NCBI GenBank assembly: GCA_019239825.1 | Contig: JAFAZK010000247.1 | Coordinates: forward strand, 1-64,000 | Source: Verrucomicrobiota bacterium | GTDB lineage: Bacteria > Verrucomicrobiota > Verrucomicrobiia > Chthoniobacterales > JAFAMB01 | Direction: 5' to 3' | Length of the DNA stretch: 64,000 bases | Shown here: piece by piece, positions 34,675 to 45,091 of the stretch | How positions within the stretch are numbered: position 1 is the stretch's first letter | How the letters are laid out: the number at the start of each line of letters is the position of its first letter | Translations under genes and position numbers: made by a program | The notes under the pieces: generated by a model | The model's database searches: none | What the model saw: only the letters and a program-made list of their open reading frames with translations | What the model was told of the DNA's origin: nothing

Positions 34675-34968
34675 CTAGTGTTCGTTTAAAAGATCCGGTT
34701 CGCGAACCAGACGACCGTTGAAAAACTGAAGAGCGATCTTCTGTCCATCCTGCACATAGTAGTAAGTGATCAACCCTGCATACTTTTTTTCGCCGTCACC
34801 ATCATCGTCTTTTCGATCTGTCGAGTCCGGTTGCCCGAGGATCGTCTCCACTTCCTTCGGGCTCATGTTCTTCTTCACCTGCAGCAGGTTGCGATTCGCA
34901 ATTTCTCGTTTGCAACCTACGACTAATAACGCCGCGCATAACCCGACGATTAGGTACGCGCTCCGCAT
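34675..34968 (-). CDS. Small BamE/SmpA-like lipoprotein inside the nuo operon
   Basis: A 97-residue exported protein with a lipobox (LLVVGC, Cys at about 19 of the ATG form), so it is probably anchored in the outer or inner membrane. The mature part has the SmpA/OmlA-like start NLLQVKKNMSPKEVETILGQPD, a pattern shared with BamE-type small lipoproteins. A charged loop (DRKDDDGDGEKK) and a final beta-rich part (ITYYYVQDGQKIALQFFNGRL) follow. The ATG at 34968 is 4 bp after the nuoD stop; a GTG at 34983 is possible. It has no known role in complex I and its position between nuoD and nuoE is unusual. Confidence 0.75.
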   Translation of the reverse strand: MRSAYLIVGLCAALLVVGCKREIANRNLLQVKKNMSPKEVETILGQPDSTDRKDDDGDGEKKYAGLITYYYVQDGQKIALQFFNGRLVREPDLLNEH

Positions 34969-34972
34969 ATAC

Positions 34973-36223
34973 CTAGCGATCACATTCGCCCATCACAAAA
35001 TCAAGACTGCCTAGTATCGCCACCACGTCCGACATCATGTGACCTGGCAAAATCTTTGGCAGGACGCTTAGGTTTACAAAGGAAGGAGCCCTAATTTTTA
35101 ACCGGTACGGAACGCCTCCTCCCTTGCTGTTAATATAAAAGCCCAACTCTCCTTTTGGATTCTCTGCGCCGAAATAAACCTCGCCGACCGGCGCATCAAT
35201 CCCTTCGGTATGAATGATGAAGTGATGGATTAACTCTTCCATTTTCATCAACACCTCCGGTTTAGGCGGAGGCATGTTCTTCGGATCGTGAACGGCGATG
35301 GGACCGTCCGGTAATTTTTGAATCACTTGCCGGAGGATCTTTACGCTTTGCCGCATCTCTTCGTTCCTCACCAGATAACGGTCGTAGGCATCCCCGACCG
35401 TGCCGATGGGAACATCGAAATCGTATTTGTCGTAATCGAGATACGGGCGAGCTTTGCGGACGTCGTAGTCGATGCCCGAGCCGCGGATATTCGGGCCAGT
35501 CATGGCAAAGCTGATGGCGTCTTCCTTGGAGATCACACCGAGACCTTTGGTCCGGTCAACCCAGATCCGGTTACGAGTTAGTAGCCGATCGAGTTCGTCC
35601 AATTGGGGGACGAATTCGTCGAGAAATTTGGTAAGAGCGGGGATAAAGCCATCAGGCAAATCGCGGATTTGCCCTCCGATCCGGGTATAGGAAGTCGTGA
35701 ATCTAGCTCCGGTAAGAAGCTCGATCAGGTTATACAGTTTCTCTCGCTCGGTGAAGGTATAGAGGAAAACGGTGGTGGCCCCCACATCCATCGCGAACGC
35801 GCCCAGACCCAAAAGATGAGAGGATATCCGCGCTACTTCACACGCAATAACCCGAATCGCTTTTCCTCTGGGCGGCAGCTCCCAACCCATTAGCTTCTCG
35901 ACCGCTAACGCGTAAGCGACATTATTCGCGAGCGGGGCGAGATAATCCAGCCGGTCGGTATAAGGAACAAACTGGTTGAACTGCATGTTCTCGGCGATCT
36001 TCTCGTCGCCGCGATGCAGATAACCGATGTCCGGTATGGCCTTAGTGATGATTTCGCCATCGAGCTCGAGGACAATTCTCAGGACCCCATGGGTGGCCGG
36101 ATGGGAGGGGCCCATATTGATCACGAGCTTCTCGCCGAGGAGCTCCGAATCATTGATTGTTTCCAACGACTTGGCCGTGCGCGCCAAGGTATCCGGAGTT
36201 TCAATTGTATGCGGGGTAGCCAT
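34973..36223 (-). CDS. nuoD: NADH-quinone oxidoreductase subunit D
   Basis: 49-kDa-like subunit that forms the quinone-binding site of complex I with NuoB. From the preferred ATG at 36223 (MATPHTIETPD) it has 416 residues. Visible features are the N-terminal INMGPSHPATHG, the conserved DIGYLHRG segment, the EELIHHFIIHTEG motif and the C-terminal SLDFVMGECDR. It is the first gene of the minus-strand run here; nuoA, nuoB and nuoC are not in the window. The spacer to the divergent ndh gene holds a Rex-type operator. Confidence 0.96.
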   Translation of the reverse strand: MATPHTIETPDTLARTAKSLETINDSELLGEKLVINMGPSHPATHGVLRIVLELDGEIITKAIPDIGYLHRGDEKIAENMQFNQFVPYTDRLDYLAPLANNVAYALAVEKLMGWELPPRGKAIRVIACEVARISSHLLGLGAFAMDVGATTVFLYTFTEREKLYNLIELLTGARFTTSYTRIGGQIRDLPDGFIPALTKFLDEFVPQLDELDRLLTRNRIWVDRTKGLGVISKEDAISFAMTGPNIRGSGIDYDVRKARPYLDYDKYDFDVPIGTVGDAYDRYLVRNEEMRQSVKILRQVIQKLPDGPIAVHDPKNMPPPKPEVLMKMEELIHHFIIHTEGIDAPVGEVYFGAENPKGELGFYINSKGGGVPYRLKIRAPSFVNLSVLPKILPGHMMSDVVAILGSLDFVMGECDR

Positions 36224-36308
36224 AAGGTTCAAAGGACGCCCGGTCCGACGGGCGCAGAGCCAGCCTATCAACAGTTAAGGATCACCAAACAGAGCCGCAA
36301 GCGATTAT

Positions 36309-36326
36309 TTGTGAAAACTTTCACAA
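36309..36326. promoter_or_regulatory. Rex-type operator TTGTGAAA-AC-TTTCACAA
   Basis: A perfect 8-2-8 palindrome that matches the established Rex consensus TTGTGAAnnnnTTCACAA at every defined position. Rex is an NADH-sensing repressor: when NADH/NAD+ is high it leaves the operator. The site lies 85 bp upstream of the nuoD ATG and 86 bp upstream of the ndh ATG, so one dimer could control both divergent promoters. No rex gene is in the window. Confidence 0.8.
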
Positions 36327-36412: not shown

Positions 36413-37738
36413 ATGAATGCTGAGTCTGTTGAACGCAAGAAAACACCGCGAATTGTCATTATCGGTGGCGGTTTCGGAGGACTTTATGCAGCCAAAGAAT
36501 TGGCGAACCAACCGGTTTCGATGATTCTGTTGGATCGGACCAATCATCATTTGTTCCAGCCACTGCTATACCAAGTCGCCACAGCAGCGCTTTCTCCCGG
36601 AGATATCGCCCAACCTATTCGGCATATTTTAAAGCACGCCAAGAACCTGGAGGTAGTGCTGGCGAAGGTTGATCGCGTGGACGTTGCCAACAAGCGGGTG
36701 ATCTGCGGAGACCGAGAGGTTTCTTATGACTATCTGATCGTCGCCGCCGGGGCCCGGCATTCCTACTTTGGGCACGATGAATGGGAGCAATTCGCACCCG
36801 GCCTGAAAAGCATGGAAGATGTCCTGGAATTGCGGCGACGGATTCTTTTTGCGTTCGAGGCAGCTGAAATTGCGGAGACCCCAGAAGAGCGCAAGAAGGC
36901 GTTGACCTTTGTGGTGGTGGGTGCGGGACCGACCGGCGTCGAAATGGCCGGCGCGATTGCGGAGCTCGCGCATAAAAGCTTGGCGGACGAGTTCCATCAC
37001 GTTAACCCGCGAGATGCCCGGGTGGTGCTAGTGGACGCGGCTCCCCGGGTGCTGCCGGCCTTTACCTCGGGGTTATCCGAATCTGCTCGTAAACAGCTGG
37101 AACAACTTCAGGTTGAAGTCCGGACCGGGGTCATGGTGAAAAACGTGGGCCCTGAAGGTGTCCAAGTCGGTGAAGAATTGATTTCCGCCCGTACCGTTGT
37201 CTGGGCGGCCGGCAATGCGGCTTCGCCATTAGGCAAGAGTTTGGGAGCTGAACTCGATCGTGCCGGCCGGGTCAAGGTCAACGAAGACCTGACGATCCCG
37301 GGGCATCCGGAAGTGTTCGTCATCGGTGATATGGCAGTTTTTACTCATCAGACCAGTGAACCATTACCTGGAGTTTGTCCGGTCGCGATGCAGATGGGCC
37401 GGCACGCTGCCCGGAACATCCTGGCTACGATCGAAGGCCGGCCGATGACGCCTTTCCACTACCGGGACAAAGGTCAGATGGCCACCATCGGACGCAATCG
37501 AGCGATTGCCGATCTGAAAGTGGTTCGGTTCGGCGGATTTTTCGCTTGGCTGAGTTGGCTCTTTATCCATTTGATTTTCCTGATTGGGTTCCGCAATCAG
37601 GTCTTCGTTTTCTTTCAATGGATGTGGGCGTACCTGACGTATTCGAAAGGTGCGCGGCTGATTTATGGGGTGTTCAAGCCGGGGGTGAGTCGGACAGAAC
37701 CACAGATAGCAGATAGCAAATCGAGGGTTGGGCCTTGA
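36413..37738 (+). CDS. ndh: Type II NADH dehydrogenase (NDH-2)
   Basis: Non-proton-pumping FAD enzyme that passes electrons from NADH to quinone at the inner membrane face. The 441-residue protein has two Rossmann motifs: IVIIGGGFGGLYAAKEL for FAD near 15-31 and VVVGAGPTGVEMAGAIAEL for NADH near 168-186. The quinone-side signature VCPVAMQMGRHAA and an amphipathic/hydrophobic C-terminal anchor (AWLSWLFIHLIFLIGFRNQ, then FFQWMWAYLTYSKGARL) are present. It is transcribed divergently from the complex I operon with a Rex-like operator in between. It converges with the Hsp70 gene over a short spacer containing inverted GATAGCAGATAGC/GCTATT parts. Confidence 0.94.
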   Translation: MNAESVERKKTPRIVIIGGGFGGLYAAKELANQPVSMILLDRTNHHLFQPLLYQVATAALSPGDIAQPIRHILKHAKNLEVVLAKVDRVDVANKRVICGDREVSYDYLIVAAGARHSYFGHDEWEQFAPGLKSMEDVLELRRRILFAFEAAEIAETPEERKKALTFVVVGAGPTGVEMAGAIAELAHKSLADEFHHVNPRDARVVLVDAAPRVLPAFTSGLSESARKQLEQLQVEVRTGVMVKNVGPEGVQVGEELISARTVVWAAGNAASPLGKSLGAELDRAGRVKVNEDLTIPGHPEVFVIGDMAVFTHQTSEPLPGVCPVAMQMGRHAARNILATIEGRPMTPFHYRDKGQMATIGRNRAIADLKVVRFGGFFAWLSWLFIHLIFLIGFRNQVFVFFQWMWAYLTYSKGARLIYGVFKPGVSRTEPQIADSKSRVGP

Positions 37739-37773: not shown

Positions 37774-40590
37774 CTATTCGCGAAGCGCCAGGCCCGGGGG
37801 AAGCGACTCGCCGAACAGGTTTGCGCGCTCTGATCCAGCGACGGGCACGAACGTTTGTAATTTCGCCAGCTTCACCCGACTAACGCCGGATTTTTCTAAT
37901 TTCGAGGCGATCCTATCGCGAAGCGCTCTTGGCAGATCGATTTCCGGAGCATCCATGATACGGCCGGCTCGGAGAAAAAGCGTCTGCATCTCCGAAAATT
38001 CCGGCGCGCTCCAATCCAGATCTGAAAATGCCTCAAACGCGCGTTCGACATACACCGACGGAACCACGTAATCAGGCCCAGCGTAGAACAGCGCGCGATT
38101 GAGCAGGAGTCCAAGCGCAACCAGGTAGGGAGCGCAATGTTGTTTGTTGATCGCCAGCTGCCGTGCACTCCTAAGAAAGAGTTCGATTACCTCCGTTTTT
38201 GTATCGGATCTGATTCGTTCGAGCGAGCCGGTTAGGCGAACGAGCTCGGGCGGTAGATTCTTTTGAGAGCGAAGTCTGGGCAGCTCTGGCATCAAGATCA
38301 TTTCCTGGCGTTCCTGATTCAAGCCGCCTGCAATGCGTCTCCAGAGAATGTATTGCTGAATTTGGGTGCGCTTACCCGGGTAGACGAACGGCTCGCTCTG
38401 CAACTGCCAGACTTGATTAATCCGAGTGTTATCTCCTTCCGCGCCAAATCCTGGTCGAAGGAGGAACCCAGCTAGAATCAACCAGGTTTCCTCATGTTCG
38501 ACTGATTCAGCCCGCCCCGAGAAACTCTCCTTGAGAGCAGGCCAGAGGTCCCGAATCAGCCGCAGGTTCCACTCGGACTTCGGCAGTTGAAGAATCTTTT
38601 CGAGGCTCTTCAGAAGATTGTTAGCTGTCAATTTGTCCCGTGGATCCAAAGCGCGGGAGAAGAGCGTTGTGATGCGATTCCGGGCAGCGTCTAACTTCGC
38701 CGGGTCAAATCCAAGGTCGACTGTTGTAGTCTCTTCAGACCTGTCGCTCCGGACCGAAGCGAAGGAGGATTCCGTGTCTTCGTCCCCAGCCGGGTGCATG
38801 CGAAGATTAAAATCTAGCGGCCATGACTCGCGTATGGCCGGGTCAGCACTTACACAGGCTACGCGGAGCAACCCAAGCTCGTTCATTCGCGCGGTAAGCG
38901 TGACGGGGATTCGGTTGTCCTTGGGAGCACGTCCGACGACCCGAGCGGTCGCTTGAAGGGGAGGCATTTTAAAAAAATCGCGATCATTCCAGACTACCAG
39001 CGACCCGGCTTTATCATTGGAACGACGAGTTGAGTAGTAGGGCTGAAAGCGGACTGGATGATTTACACGAAGCTCCAGACCGGACTCCGAAATTTGAAAT
39101 TCCTCTTCGGATGCCGCATTACGGGGCAAAACACAGACCAGCGCCGGCGCACCGGACTCCTCCGCGGCTCGGCGGTGGACTTCGAGGTAGATTGCGCGGG
39201 CGGCCCCGGCTTCGATGCGTTGGGCCTGGCGGTGAAGGATACCACCAAAATCCGCGGCGCCTAAAGCAACCGCGAGGTCTAGTGCGGAGTTATGCAGGAT
39301 TCGCGGTTCAACACCGCCCTGCCAATGGGTGATCCGTTGCTGAAGCCGGCGCCGTAACATTTCGGGGTAAAGCGATCCGCCGTTGAAGAGGATCGCATCT
39401 ATAGGCGGTCGGCCCCGAAGAAATTCAGCCAGATAACGTGTGACCGCGCTGTCAGCGGCATAAGGAAGCGCCCACTCTCTTAAGCCGGCCTGGGTGCGTA
39501 CGGGCTGAGCATCGGCATCGCACTCCGGAAAAAATCCATCCAGCACGATCGATTCAATTTCCGGACGCTTGATCTGGCCGCCGAGTGTGCCACCTAGCAA
39601 GCTCGACCCTCGCCCGGGAATCGACACCGGAAACGAATCTCCGGTGGGATCGCTGAGGCAGCGTTCCTTTAAATCGCGACAGCTTGCCACTAGAAAGTTC
39701 CATTGCGTTGGGGCCAGTTCGCCCGTCACGAGTCGTGACTTGATGTGGTGTGCCAGTGCGAGGTCAATGTTGTCGCCTCCGAGCAGCAGGTGGTCGCCAA
39801 CCGCGATCCGTTTGATCTGCGGAAGAGCGAATTGGGCATGGGATGCGCCGTAGCCGAGCGAAGAAGGTCCGATTTCAAAAAGGCTGAAATCGGTTGTGCC
39901 GCCCCCAATGTCGATGACGAGTACATGATGGGAGCCGTTTCCTGGCAACCCACTTAAGATCTCCTCCGAAGCGCGGTTCTGTTGCAGCCAGCGATAAAAT
40001 GCTGCCTGCGGTTCCTCCAAAAGACGGACTGATTCCGGAAAGCCGGCCTCAGATGCAGCGTCTAAAGTAAGGCGCTGTGCGGCAGCATCGAAGGATGCAG
40101 GCACCGTGACGGTTATCTCCTGCTCGTCAAAACGAATCCCCTCGCTAGCAAACTTCGCATCCCAAGCCACACGCAGGTATTCAAGCAGGAGCGCGGATGC
40201 TCGGATGGGTGAGATCCTTTTCTCGACCGGAATCTCGTCCGATCGCCAAGGCAGAAATGCCGCGGTCCGATCCACCGCGTGATGGCAAAGCCAGGACTTG
40301 GCGGAGTGCACCACTCGACCAGGCAATTCCCCCGCTTTTTTCCGGGCGAATCGACCAGGAACCCACTCTCCTGGGGTCGCGCCTTGTTCTGTCATCTGCG
40401 CCGCTTCCTGGTCCGTCGGCAGGTAAAGAAACGACGGCAAAGCGCTCAGTTCTGAGAACCCGGTTACGCTCTCCCATTGTGGGATAAGAAATGCCGCAGA
40501 ACTCCGATTCATCCCGTCAAGGGCTTGGAGCGCCATAGCGCAGTTCGTAGTCCCAAGATCGATTCCGATGCTGAATTTCGGGCCGGGCAT
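37774..40590 (-). CDS. Hsp70-family protein, large (938 aa)
   Basis: An Hsp70/actin-fold ATPase of 938 residues, much longer than DnaK. The N-terminal ATPase part has phosphate-1 GIDLGTTNCA (9-18), phosphate-2 VIDIGGGTTDFSL and the adenosine-side LFNGGSLYPEMLRRR. After about residue 480 comes a short beta domain and then about 350 residues of helical sequence with repeated Leu/Arg-rich parts, for which I recognise no named domain. It is transcribed after a related 627-residue Hsp70 and the DUF2760 gene. No dnaJ or grpE is nearby, so its co-chaperones and client are unknown. The 376-bp gap to its upstream neighbour suggests separate expression. Confidence 0.85.
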   Translation of the reverse strand: MPGPKFSIGIDLGTTNCAMALQALDGMNRSSAAFLIPQWESVTGFSELSALPSFLYLPTDQEAAQMTEQGATPGEWVPGRFARKKAGELPGRVVHSAKSWLCHHAVDRTAAFLPWRSDEIPVEKRISPIRASALLLEYLRVAWDAKFASEGIRFDEQEITVTVPASFDAAAQRLTLDAASEAGFPESVRLLEEPQAAFYRWLQQNRASEEILSGLPGNGSHHVLVIDIGGGTTDFSLFEIGPSSLGYGASHAQFALPQIKRIAVGDHLLLGGDNIDLALAHHIKSRLVTGELAPTQWNFLVASCRDLKERCLSDPTGDSFPVSIPGRGSSLLGGTLGGQIKRPEIESIVLDGFFPECDADAQPVRTQAGLREWALPYAADSAVTRYLAEFLRGRPPIDAILFNGGSLYPEMLRRRLQQRITHWQGGVEPRILHNSALDLAVALGAADFGGILHRQAQRIEAGAARAIYLEVHRRAAEESGAPALVCVLPRNAASEEEFQISESGLELRVNHPVRFQPYYSTRRSNDKAGSLVVWNDRDFFKMPPLQATARVVGRAPKDNRIPVTLTARMNELGLLRVACVSADPAIRESWPLDFNLRMHPAGDEDTESSFASVRSDRSEETTTVDLGFDPAKLDAARNRITTLFSRALDPRDKLTANNLLKSLEKILQLPKSEWNLRLIRDLWPALKESFSGRAESVEHEETWLILAGFLLRPGFGAEGDNTRINQVWQLQSEPFVYPGKRTQIQQYILWRRIAGGLNQERQEMILMPELPRLRSQKNLPPELVRLTGSLERIRSDTKTEVIELFLRSARQLAINKQHCAPYLVALGLLLNRALFYAGPDYVVPSVYVERAFEAFSDLDWSAPEFSEMQTLFLRAGRIMDAPEIDLPRALRDRIASKLEKSGVSRVKLAKLQTFVPVAGSERANLFGESLPPGLALRE

Positions 40591-40599
40591 GTTGGCGTT

Positions 40600-40962
40600 T
40601 TGGCGTTTGGAGTTCGGCGTTTGGCGTCGGGTTGTTGCTGCGAAGCGGTTACGGGGCTCTGCCTTAGATCAGGCACTCCGATACGATAAGACCTGACATT
40701 GGCGTCCGAATAAACGTCGTAAAGCTGGAGACCATTTCATGTCGTATACCTCTTCCGGCAAACCACGCCGTTGAAACAACTGTCAGGCCACGTTTAGGGC
40801 TCTGCATCTAAATGGTTAAAGCCTGGATAACCCTGGGTTAAGTCTTTTGTCCCTTCGGGACACCCATCGCCCAGCTGCACCACTCCAAAGCTTCATCTCC
40901 CCATCACGTCCCACACGCTGATACGCCCCGCGCCCCGCGCCGAACGCCAAACGCCAAACGCC
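40600..40962. repeat. Spacer between the two Hsp70 genes, palindrome with GGCGTTTGGCG arms
   Basis: TTGGCGTTTTGGCGTTTGG...GTTCGGCGTTTGGCGT (40592-40627) faces CGAACGCCAAACGCCAAACGCC at 40941-40962, a pair of tandem-repeat arms enclosing about 310 bp. The interior includes a small GTCCCTTCGGGAC hairpin. No gene is supported in it. The arms lie close to both gene ends. Confidence 0.75.
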
Positions 40963-40966
40963 GAGC

Positions 40967-42850
40967 TCACTCCATTCGGAGCTGGAAGTCGAGTTTCCAG
41001 CGACGATCCGATCGGGTATGTTTCATCCAGAGCTCCAGGTTTCCCAGCTCAGTCACCACCGGATTGATCATCACCGGAATCATTTGACCTTCAGGAAATC
41101 CTTCGACTGCGGCTAACAACACCTCGACTCTGCTGGTTTCTTCCAGCTCCCGTTCGGCATTCGAGATGATCTGACCAGGCACATCTCCGCTGCGCATTTC
41201 GGATGCGAAAAAGCGAAAATCTGCCGGTTGACCAACCGTGAGCCCGAACTCCTCTTGATTGATCAGCAATTCGCTCCCTTCTTCCATTCCCTGCGGCACG
41301 ACACACACGGCTTTAATTGCCGGCTTGAATCCTGGGATCGCGGGCATCGTCGATTCCAAACCAATATAGTAAGACCGCGCCGTACCCGCCTTAATCCGAA
41401 TCCCTTTGCCGGTGGAGCGGTTTCGACCGTAAAAGGCAGCTCCTTTAGCAACCGCGAGGTCTGGTTGGAATCCCTCCAGTTCTCGAACCGGGATCCCATT
41501 ATTCCACGAAGTGAGCAGGTCGATGACGCGCTTTCGAATTGGCGCCGCGTTGAATACGCCCCCATTAAAAAGCACGGCAGTGGGCGTGATGTATTCGCTT
41601 CCGAGTGCCTGCGATTTCATCAGCGAAACCAGCGTTTCACTGCCTTTCACGTTGATCAGGCTGCGCCTCAGGAAACGCGCGAGATGCTTGCTAACGACCG
41701 GATCAGCCGCATAGGGAAGCCCTAACTCCCGAAGTCCTGCCGCCACAGCTTGCTGCGGTAGCTCGGACGGCTTGGTCAGCGGAAAAAAACCATCAAGGAC
41801 CACTTGCTCAAGTGTGGCGCGCTCCAGTGTTACCGAGACTGTCTTAGCGAGTAAGCTCGAGCCTCTGGATGGAACCGCAATCTGAGTTTCCGGCAATGAT
41901 GAGTCTGTGAACAAACGGACCTTGGCATTACTCGCTGTATGAATCAGAGAAAGAAACTGCCATTCGTCGATCGTTTTTCCGGCCGCTTCCAGTTGGCTCC
42001 TGAGCGTATAAGCCAAGGCCAGGTCCATGTTGTCGCCGCCCAAAAGGATGTGTTCGCCAACACTGATCCGTTCGACTTCAAGGTTCCCATCGTTTTCGGC
42101 AATCGCGATCAGACTGAAATCCGAAGTGCCACCTCCGACGTCGCAGACGAGAACGATGTCCCCAGGGCCGACCTGCTTGCGCCAATCTGATCCGGACTGT
42201 TCCATCCACGCATAAAAGGCGGCTTGCGGTTCTTCAAGGAGGACCAGCTTAGGAAAACCCGCAGCCTGTGCAGCTTCGAGCGTCAGATTCCGCGCCACCT
42301 CGTCAAATGAGGCGGGAACGGTGATGACAACCTGGCCATCATCGATATTCCATGATCGGTCTCGCGCCCGTTCAGCGTTTAAGAACCCTAGCTTCATATG
42401 CTCGAGATAAAGCCGGGAACATTCGAGTGCGGAGAGCTTTGGCTCGTCGATGTCCGATTTCCATGGCAGAACTGGTTTCCTCGGATCCACATGGAAGTTC
42501 GATAACCAAGACTTGGCCGAGGTGATCAACCGATCTGGAATCAGGGCACCGTGATCTCGTGCAAAATGGCCCACGATCACCCCATTGCTTCTCTCCTCCC
42601 AAGGAAGACGGAGCTGTTCTTTCGGAAACTCGTCTGGATGCGGAATATAGACGGCAGACGGGAGAGTTGGCTTTTCCCCGATCCGGTTTGGACCAAGGAG
42701 TTGGGTCATCTCGACCATCCCGGTCCAGCCGGTCTCCAGATCCTCGAGAGCAACCGCACTGTTAGTGGTTCCCAGATCAATTCCGAGGCTGAAGCGCGCG
42801 CCGGCTTGGATGTCGACTGCAGATTCCGAATTCTGAACGGCAAATTCCAC
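40967..42850 (-). CDS. Hsp70-family protein (627 aa)
   Basis: A DnaK-like ATPase of 627 residues. The ATPase motifs are GIDLGTTNSA (23-32), VCDVGGGTSDFSL near 240 and VLFNGGVFNAAPIRKR near 425. The substrate-binding domain is shorter than in DnaK and ends with a beta-rich part (GNLELWMKHTRSDRRWKLDFQLRME) rather than a helical lid. It is the middle gene of the DUF2760-Hsp70-Hsp70 set, which is a recurring arrangement in Planctomycetes and Verrucomicrobia. The function of the set is not established. An element D palindrome sits upstream, between it and the DUF2760 gene. Confidence 0.86.
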   Translation of the reverse strand: MEFAVQNSESAVDIQAGARFSLGIDLGTTNSAVALEDLETGWTGMVEMTQLLGPNRIGEKPTLPSAVYIPHPDEFPKEQLRLPWEERSNGVIVGHFARDHGALIPDRLITSAKSWLSNFHVDPRKPVLPWKSDIDEPKLSALECSRLYLEHMKLGFLNAERARDRSWNIDDGQVVITVPASFDEVARNLTLEAAQAAGFPKLVLLEEPQAAFYAWMEQSGSDWRKQVGPGDIVLVCDVGGGTSDFSLIAIAENDGNLEVERISVGEHILLGGDNMDLALAYTLRSQLEAAGKTIDEWQFLSLIHTASNAKVRLFTDSSLPETQIAVPSRGSSLLAKTVSVTLERATLEQVVLDGFFPLTKPSELPQQAVAAGLRELGLPYAADPVVSKHLARFLRRSLINVKGSETLVSLMKSQALGSEYITPTAVLFNGGVFNAAPIRKRVIDLLTSWNNGIPVRELEGFQPDLAVAKGAAFYGRNRSTGKGIRIKAGTARSYYIGLESTMPAIPGFKPAIKAVCVVPQGMEEGSELLINQEEFGLTVGQPADFRFFASEMRSGDVPGQIISNAERELEETSRVEVLLAAVEGFPEGQMIPVMINPVVTELGNLELWMKHTRSDRRWKLDFQLRME

Positions 42851-42946
42851 TGGAGTAAAATTAGAGTGTCATAACACAACCTGACCGCAAGAGAAGTGTC
42901 ATGGTCGAAAACCGGAGCGGCGGAGTAATGGAGTGACGGGAGTAAT

Positions 42947-43013
42947 GGAGGGGAGCCGCTTTAGCACATGGCAGCTCTATCAGTTGGCAGCAGGCGGCTC
43001 CCGCGAAAGTTTC
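42947..43013. repeat. Palindromic GGAGCCGC element, copy D (half element)
   Basis: GGAGGGGAGCCGCTTT (42947-42962) pairs with GCAGGCGGCTCCCGCG (42989-43004) around a loop with two copies of the TGGCAG motif, as in copies F and G. It is one half element. Just left of it lie GGAGTAATGGAGTGACGG simple repeats, and to the right, at about 43070-43140, GGTTGGTAG/CTACCAACC inverted parts. Confidence 0.75.
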
Positions 43014-43204
43014 GACGTGTGGCAGTTCGATGCTTCGGTGTCCCCTCCTGCACAGAGTGGAGGCTTAGCGGTTGGTAGTTTACCGTTTGCGTTTGGGGAG
43101 TAGACGTTCCGGAGTCGCGTCTGCGTCCTACCAACCACCCATTCGACGCGCCCGAGGCTTGCTCAGGACAGGCCTGTCATTTCTTAGCCGGAAAACACCT
43201 CCGT

Positions 43205-43837
43205 CTACGCAAGTTCCACCTCCGCGGGCGCTATCGCAGGAAGACGGTCGCTTTTAACGGTTCTTGGGAGTTTTACGTATTCGGTTCTCCAGCCCTTGTG
43301 AATCAGCTTGCCGCTGAAGGGTGGATTTCCGCTGATCTTCCCGATGAGCCGGTACTCGTCGGCAGCGTACCCGGCCGGCACGGTGACTCTAGAACCTTCT
43401 TCCGCGGCGGAAACGGGAGTGATACTGAAGTGTTCTGCCAGCACCTCTTTACAACCCTGATGAATTACTCTGGCCGCCGCGCCGACTTGTGCGTCGTCAT
43501 AGGTGGTTACATCCTCCATAAGAAAATCTACCAGCCGGCCCTTCTCCTGAAGAAGAGCCAGAAAAGCCGCAATCTCTCCTTCGGCCTGGCCTGCAACCGG
43601 AGCGGGAGGCGCGACCGTCAGAGGCGCCGGCGAAGGAACGCCCGTTGATGCCGGACCGGGCGCTGAACTTGAGTTGGCCTTTGACCTCCCGGCAAGCGAA
43701 AGCGCAAACACCAGAATCGCCACCAAAAGGGCCACGATCGCAATTGGAATTGTGTAGGCATGGGCTCCGGGAACGAGCAGCAAACCGTTCAGCACTACCA
43801 GAACGACGGCAGCAATTGGTAGATAAGGCTTCATCAT
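43205..43837 (-). CDS. DUF2760 protein
   Basis: A 210-residue protein with two adjacent N-terminal hydrophobic spans (about 6-27 and 30-50), a Ser/Pro/Ala-rich linker (55-85) and a C-terminal DUF2760 domain. The domain shows ALLQEKGRLVDFLMEDVTTYDDAQVGAAARVIHQGCKEVL (split here: LLQEKGRLVDFLMEDV and YDDAQVGAAARVIHQGC) and the beta-rich GNPPFSGKLIHKGWR end. It is found next to Hsp70 genes in related bacteria, so a membrane link to the two Hsp70 proteins is plausible. Its biochemical role is unknown. Confidence 0.8.
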   Translation of the reverse strand: MMKPYLPIAAVVLVVLNGLLLVPGAHAYTIPIAIVALLVAILVFALSLAGRSKANSSSAPGPASTGVPSPAPLTVAPPAPVAGQAEGEIAAFLALLQEKGRLVDFLMEDVTTYDDAQVGAAARVIHQGCKEVLAEHFSITPVSAAEEGSRVTVPAGYAADEYRLIGKISGNPPFSGKLIHKGWRTEYVKLPRTVKSDRLPAIAPAEVELA

Positions 43838-44242: not shown

Positions 44243-45091
44243 GTGTTACAGAGGATTCTCAAATTCATTCGTTTCTCTCACACCGTTTTCGCGTTGCCGT
44301 TCGCTGTCGGGTCGATGCTAGTGGCAGCGAAAGGGTTTCCGAGTTTGGTGATAATAGGTCTGATTCTTTTGGCCATGGTCTTCGCGAGAACCGCGGCGAT
44401 GGCGTTCAATCGGGTCGCTGACTGGGAAACAGATAAGCTTAATCCGCGGACTGCCGGACGGCATAAGCTCGTGTCTAAAGGCACGGCCTACACTCTGGTC
44501 GGTTTTTCGAGTGTCGCTTTTGTCCTGGTCTGTTCCTTGATTAATCCGATTTGTTTTCTTTTGTCTCCAGTTGCTCTAGCTGTGATCTTTTTTTATTCGT
44601 ACACGAAAAGATTCACGTCCTACACGCAGTTTTTCTTAGGGCTGTCATTGGCGATTGCTCCAGTGGGCGCCTGGTTAGCCGTCCGGGGAGAATTCGCATG
44701 GCCGCCGATTATCCTGGCGCTGGGCGTTATTTTCTGGGTTGGTGGTTTCGACCTGATTTACGCGACTCAGGATTATGACTTCGACCGGAAGCAGGGTCTG
44801 CATTCGATGGTCGTTCGATTTGGTGTTCCCGCGAGTCTTAGGCTGGCGCAAGGAATGCACGCCGTTTTACTGCTCTGCCTACTCGGTTTCGGTGTGGTGG
44901 CTAATCTGGGCTGGATTTATTATCTCTCGTTGGTAGCGGTCGGTGGCGCGCTGTTCTATGAGCACAGAGCGGCGGCCAATCTCGACTTGGCTGGAATCAA
45001 CCGTGCTTTCTTCCAAAGCAACGCCTTCGTAAGTGTGATCTTTGTTTTGGCCGTCGGGATGGATGTATTGTTGCTGGGCATACCTTCGTAA
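44243..45091 (+). CDS. UbiA-family prenyltransferase (4-hydroxybenzoate/menaquinone-precursor type)
   Basis: An integral membrane prenyltransferase of 282 residues with about eight helices. Both Asp-rich motifs that bind the prenyl diphosphate magnesium ions are present: NRVADWETDKLNPRTAGR near 58-75 and the second DYDFDRKQGLHS near 182. It could be UbiA or MqnP (futalosine-route menaquinone); UbiE, MqnA or other pathway genes are not adjacent, so no symbol is given. It starts with a GTG at 44243. Its stop codon is part of the left arm of repeat E. Confidence 0.85.
   Translation: MLQRILKFIRFSHTVFALPFAVGSMLVAAKGFPSLVIIGLILLAMVFARTAAMAFNRVADWETDKLNPRTAGRHKLVSKGTAYTLVGFSSVAFVLVCSLINPICFLLSPVALAVIFFYSYTKRFTSYTQFFLGLSLAIAPVGAWLAVRGEFAWPPIILALGVIFWVGGFDLIYATQDYDFDRKQGLHSMVVRFGVPASLRLAQGMHAVLLLCLLGFGVVANLGWIYYLSLVAVGGALFYEHRAAANLDLAGINRAFFQSNAFVSVIFVLAVGMDVLLLGIPS

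Follow-up and report, generated by a model that had tools for sequence, protein, structure and literature searches.

The 18-bp palindrome that lies between the divergent nuoD and ndh genes in the window (the whole 64,000-nucleotide stretch of DNA that was analyzed) is well supported as an operator of the repressor Rex by its sequence match, by a genome-wide excess of perfect sites, and by its conservation. Judging from the set of genes that carry this operator, the respiratory chain as a whole is probably adjusted up or down by a single NADH sensor. The features at the center of this analysis are as follows.

36309 to 36326, without strand: Rex operator, perfect palindrome TTGTGAAAACTTTCACAA
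34973 to 36223, minus strand: nuoD, first gene of the nuo operon (NuoD, TIGR01962, 542 bits)
36413 to 37738, plus strand: ndh, type II NADH dehydrogenase (NDH-2), with PF07992 (Pyr_redox_2) and PF22366 (NDH2_C)

A pattern scan of the window showed that the 18-mer at 36309-36326 matches all 14 of the 14 fixed positions of TTGTGAANNNNTTCACAA, and no second match with fewer than 3 mismatches was found in the window. The first-pass annotation had reported this palindrome in the nuoD/ndh spacer, where it is present exactly as written, and the names given there to both flanking genes are borne out by the TIGR01962 match and by the Pyr_redox_2 and NDH2_C matches, respectively. The same annotation placed the operator about equally between the two starts. 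This holds for the start codons, with 85 bp between the operator and the nuoD ATG (36223, minus strand) and 86 bp between the operator and the ndh ATG (36413, plus strand), but need not hold for the promoters, of which that of nuoD could be placed by conservation and that of ndh could not. In relatives, the distance from the operator to ndh varies widely.

Across the 6.67 Mb source genome, four perfect sites were found, compared with 0.025 expected from the dinucleotide composition of the window (probability of at least four, approximately 2e-8), whereas a reversed control pattern had no match in any of 57 genomes, the source genome included. Each of the four sites is located at a gene for NADH oxidation, the quinone pool, or ATP synthesis. 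Beyond the nuoD/ndh spacer, the motif anticipated at other respiratory genes was found at three genes: atpB, which opens the ATP synthase operon; mqnE, whose product scores 450 bits with TIGR03700 (cut-off 434.55) and is the aminofutalosine synthase acting in the futalosine pathway of menaquinone synthesis; and a gene for a long-chain polyprenyl-diphosphate synthase (PF00348), which presumably makes the quinone tail and for which the best NCBIfam match is of the heptaprenyl type, below that model's cut-off. Two of these operators are positioned as follows.

L013:7821-7838 (source genome G000, contig C242): operator of the polyprenyl-diphosphate synthase gene
L014:6250-6267 (source genome G000, contig C251): operator of mqnE

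Fermentation genes (adh, ldh, pfl) were not seen among the targets. Two weaker sites in the source genome were set aside as probable chance matches: a one-mismatch site on contig C200, inside a prolyl-oligopeptidase-like coding region, and a two-mismatch site at C13:879, with no recognizable respiratory gene downstream.

Rex had originally been proposed without a regulator gene in the window; the genome does encode a homolog, as one full-length copy of 206 residues on another contig (G000:C165:11363, minus strand). The protein matches the Rex profile NF003995 of NCBIfam with 243.9 bits, comprises an N-terminal DNA-binding domain (PF06971) and a C-terminal Rossmann domain (PF02629), and aligns over its length with the solved structures 5zz5, 7wb3 (T. 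maritima), 2vt2, and 3keo, which represent Rex of T. maritima, B. subtilis, and S. agalactiae. Within this alignment the recognition-helix and wing stretch LRKDLTYFGQFGTRGLGY and the nucleotide motif GAGNLG are intact. DNA is contacted in the T. maritima protein by four residues of the recognition helix and wing, Arg48, Lys49, Arg60, and Gly61 (PMC8836258), and the residues aligned with these are R, K, R, and G.

The nuo operon itself runs in the order nuoD, a small lipoprotein gene, and nuoE-F-G-H-I-J-K-L, with the other subunits assigned by Pfam. The lipoprotein gene (window 34675-34983, minus strand) encodes 102 residues (VVGCKRE...MSPKEVETILGQPD) of a probable lipoprotein with no Pfam match, and a similar small lipoprotein (GCEKR...MKEVESILGAPD) is encoded 5' of nuoEF in the relatives G014 and G023 (L338, L342). 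This recurrence makes it a candidate accessory protein, and it may serve complex I in this role in the Chthoniobacterales. The nuoB and nuoC genes are located away from this operon (L349:866-1956, G000 contig C45), with no nuoA seen beside them on contig C45. A weak Rex-like site, AAGTGAAATATTTCACGA, matching 11 of 14 positions, lies 32-33 bp upstream of nuoB on that contig, and the nuoBC site of the sibling genome G001 matches 12 of 14. On the other side, ndh is adjoined (window 37774-43837, minus strand) by genes for two Hsp70-like proteins (938 aa, with DUF3731, and 627 aa) and then a DUF2760 protein. A UbiA-family prenyltransferase, possibly catalyzing a menaquinone step, is encoded at 44243-45091 of the window (plus strand), with no Rex-like site near it.

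The distribution of the operator was compared across 57 genomes of the order Chthoniobacterales, 26 with rex and 31 without. Perfect sites were present in 24 of the 26 rex-bearing genomes vs. 4 of the 31 rex-less genomes (Fisher p 7e-10, ignoring shared ancestry). The same trend was seen gene by gene when sites with at most one mismatch were counted in rex-bearing vs. rex-less genomes, again uncorrected for shared ancestry: 19/23 vs. 3/27 for nuoD, 18/22 vs. 3/29 for atpB, 14/24 vs. 1/19 for mqnE, and 17/22 vs. 3/29 for the polyprenyl synthase. The rex-less genomes with perfect sites are G015, G029, G051, and G056. The latter three are fragmented assemblies with 4-7 sites at the usual target genes, and fellow members of their genera have rex; therefore, rex is likely missing from them through an assembly gap. 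The sole perfect site of G015 (L135) is at no nameable respiratory gene and was not taken as a target; likewise, no nameable respiratory gene was found at the perfect sites in L333, L334, and L335.

The palindrome, first described from a single spacer, is conserved as a perfect site between divergent nuoD and ndh in 13 rex-bearing genomes, whereas the rex-less G032, G040, G047, and G052 keep the divergent gene pair with the operator absent. In G056, nuoD and ndh are separated and each has its own perfect site. The spacer site is degenerate (4-5 mismatches) in G005, G007, and G028, which have both rex and the divergent pair. Relatives carry further perfect sites upstream of putative actAB genes of alternative complex III (G014, G023, G030; the multihaem cytochrome assigned by Pfam and actB by sequence resemblance), at nuoEF behind the small lipoprotein gene (G014, G023), at cydAB (G012), and at nuoB of G023 (site C49:27637, gene from 27702). 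Outside the phylum, sites were observed upstream of ndh relatives in Gemmatimonadaceae (L100:3839-3856, perfect) and Acidobacteria (L068:3940-3957, one mismatch), suggesting that Rex control of ndh may be wider than this phylum.

Promoter elements were predicted by conservation in leaders aligned on the operator, using E. coli hexamer weights and shuffle controls. For nuoD these elements are as follows.

36296 to 36301, minus strand: predicted nuoD promoter, -35 box, TTGCGG, lying 8 nt beyond the operator at a position conserved in 21 non-redundant nuoD leaders
36274 to 36280, minus strand: predicted nuoD promoter, -10 region, TTAACT, lying about 16-17 nt beyond the -35

The scan at nuoD and atpB was limited to sequence downstream of the operator because a -35-like score within the operator (TTCACA / GTGAAA) merely reads its fixed sequence, and that candidate was discarded. 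In these leaders a -35 (TTGC) follows the operator by 5-8 nt (6-8 at nuoD, 5-7 at atpB), with a -10 approximately 17 bp further; promoter scores were 3.52 and 5.36, respectively, vs. shuffle maxima of 1.09 and 0.76. The center of the nuoD operator would therefore lie near -52, just upstream of the -35. The ndh promoter could not be placed by conservation of the aligned leaders; on the ndh strand, a -10-like GATTAT adjoining the operator was rejected because G006 and G008 retain it, although a divergent ndh was not found in either genome.

At the polyprenyl synthase and mqnE genes, the elements instead precede the operator, with a -35 (TTGAC/TTGnnn) 33 bases and a -10 (TAnnnT/CAnnnT) 10 bases before it, 17 bp apart (mean scores of 3.69 and 1.86 vs. 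shuffle maxima of -0.43 and 0.30, respectively). With these elements fixed before the operator, transcription would start within its first bases, and the GTG of TTGTGAA would then be the natural start codon; this suggests that both mRNAs are leaderless, with a probable GTG start overlapped by the operator. At the polyprenyl synthase, every tabulated operator is in frame with the gene, in rex-bearing and rex-less genomes alike; translation would begin with (M)-K-x-F-T or a closely similar sequence. At mqnE, the operator is in frame in the family of the source genome and in G012, but not in family f4. The aligned leaders thus suggest two promoter layouts, in which the operator lies either just upstream of the -35 (nuoD, atpB) or on the transcription start (polyprenyl synthase, mqnE). 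The broader reading, that Rex in Verrucomicrobiota governs a whole-respiratory-chain regulon including the quinone pathway, with operators abutting the -35 at nuoD and atpB and lying on leaderless starts elsewhere (the left half-site TTGTGAA giving the GTG at the polyprenyl synthase across the order and at mqnE in the source family), is held here as somewhat better than an even prospect.

NADH is known to release repressors of the Rex family from DNA (PMC5355995, PMC8836258), and the following mechanism is proposed. While NAD+ is plentiful, a Rex dimer on the operator would hold down expression of complex I (nuoD operon) and of NDH-2 (divergent ndh) alike. When electron acceptor or respiratory capacity becomes limiting and NADH builds up, NADH would bind Rex, Rex would leave the DNA, and complex I and NDH-2 would both be expressed, with ATP synthase, MqnE for menaquinone, and the polyprenyl-diphosphate synthase rising alongside through the same operator. 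The outcome would be a coordinated rise in NADH-oxidizing and respiratory capacity with no switch between coupled and uncoupled enzymes. The operator, the rex gene, the regulon, and its conservation are evident from sequence, whereas we infer Rex binding, repression, the NADH response, and the effect on ndh, as well as the sign of control at nuoD. In the first-pass annotation, the use of the coupled or the uncoupled dehydrogenase was proposed to be decided by the NADH/NAD+ ratio. This choice model is not supported because opposite effects on the two sides would be needed; a single symmetric site and its further copies at atpB, mqnE, and the polyprenyl synthase instead point to joint derepression.

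A version of the choice model in which Rex represses ndh and is neutral or activating on nuoD, so that NADH shifts the balance of dehydrogenases, is nevertheless worth weighing, although it appears unlikely. With the operator upstream of the nuoD -35, activation at this promoter is possible, and the nearly fixed spacing of 6-8 nt from the nuoD -35 (5-7 at atpB) could suit contact with polymerase; additionally, compared with the S. avermitilis footprints at -50 to -16, a center near -52 is a less common position for a repressor that acts by simple blocking, and the ndh promoter is unplaced. Activation was judged less likely on two grounds: at mqnE and the polyprenyl synthase the operator is placed on the start site, and nuo and atp of S. 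avermitilis are Rex-repressed, both rising in a rex deletion (PMC5355995). The like placement at atpB and the start-site operators suggest a common signal for all of these genes, and in G018, G036, G039, and G044, where at most a few tens of bases separate the operator from the ndh start, nuoD also has the site.

The identity of the binding protein could also be questioned, as TTGTGAAN4TTCACAA contains TGTGA-N6-TCACA, the core of a CRP/FNR-family site, matched exactly. The CRP site has the form TGTGAT-N4-ATCACA, whereas of 77 target sites, 75 have A at position 7 and all 77 have T at position 12 (in part a result of selection), and at the unselected positions 8 and 11 A occurs in 69 and T in 76, which is the Rex form, as in the S. 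aureus Rex site TTGTGAAWWWWTTCACAA (PMC5355995). The Crp domain PF00325 is absent from the genome, while the same search was positive in 9 of 14 control genomes; this search took one helix model, and the genome may encode CRP-type proteins whose helix-turn-helix domain is of another type. Since the presence of the site also follows rex across genomes, a CRP/FNR-type regulator is considered very improbable. Single 18-bp palindromes do arise by chance, but the possibility that the element is fortuitous, or structural with no regulator, is refuted by the conservation of the site at the same genes within the order and by its link with rex, in addition to the four perfect sites against 0.025 expected and the empty reversed control; this explanation retains practically no weight. 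Rex acting through joint derepression is the preferred reading.

The nearest described system is that of S. avermitilis, a regulon of the same kind in another phylum. Its Rex targets comprise atp, nuo (nuoA1-N1), ndh2, cytochrome bd (cyd), and rex-hem, with the motif TTGTGAANNNNTTCACAA and footprints between -50 and +25; Rex represses nuo and also binds the ndh2 promoter, and repression is relieved in the rex mutant (PMC5355995). The motif, the complex I, NDH-2, and ATP synthase targets, and the weakening of DNA binding by NADH reported there are thus shared with the system proposed here. The two differ in that nuo and ndh2 are separate targets in S. avermitilis, whereas one perfect site serves the divergent nuoD/ndh pair here; in that the S. 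avermitilis sites are degenerate (none perfect, two with one mismatch); and in that its rex-hemACDB operon has its own site, whereas no site with at most three mismatches was found on the rex contig here. Quinone biosynthesis (mqnE, polyprenyl synthase) and the operators embedded in start codons are additions relative to S. avermitilis. As far as the multi-phylum survey of Ravcheev et al. 2012 (J Bacteriol 194:1145) is represented in PMC5317091 and PMC8836258, the repressor family and the generalized consensus are also those of Rex in Bacillus, Staphylococcus, Streptococcus, and Thermotoga; in contrast to the targets seen here, Firmicutes Rex typically controls fermentation genes (adh, ldh, pfl). 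A literature search found no Rex paper for Verrucomicrobiota and none on Rex with leaderless operators or futalosine/menaquinone genes; Ravcheev et al. 2012 was outside this search, and the novelty of individual Rex targets is not established.

Overall, the system is ordinary in kind and the evidence for it is unusually clean. The findings extend NADH-sensing Rex control to Verrucomicrobiota and define a clean, testable regulon of complex I, NDH-2, ATP synthase, and menaquinone synthesis, with sites lost in rex-less relatives. They also correct the attractive notion that, by sharing an operator, the coupled and uncoupled NADH dehydrogenases become alternatives between which the cell can choose. 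If the proposed start-site layout is true, one 18-bp sequence would serve as operator, transcription start, and start codon at once, dictating the first residues of the protein (M-K-x-F-T); an operator built into a start codon in this way would be a neat example of regulation limiting which residues a protein can begin with.
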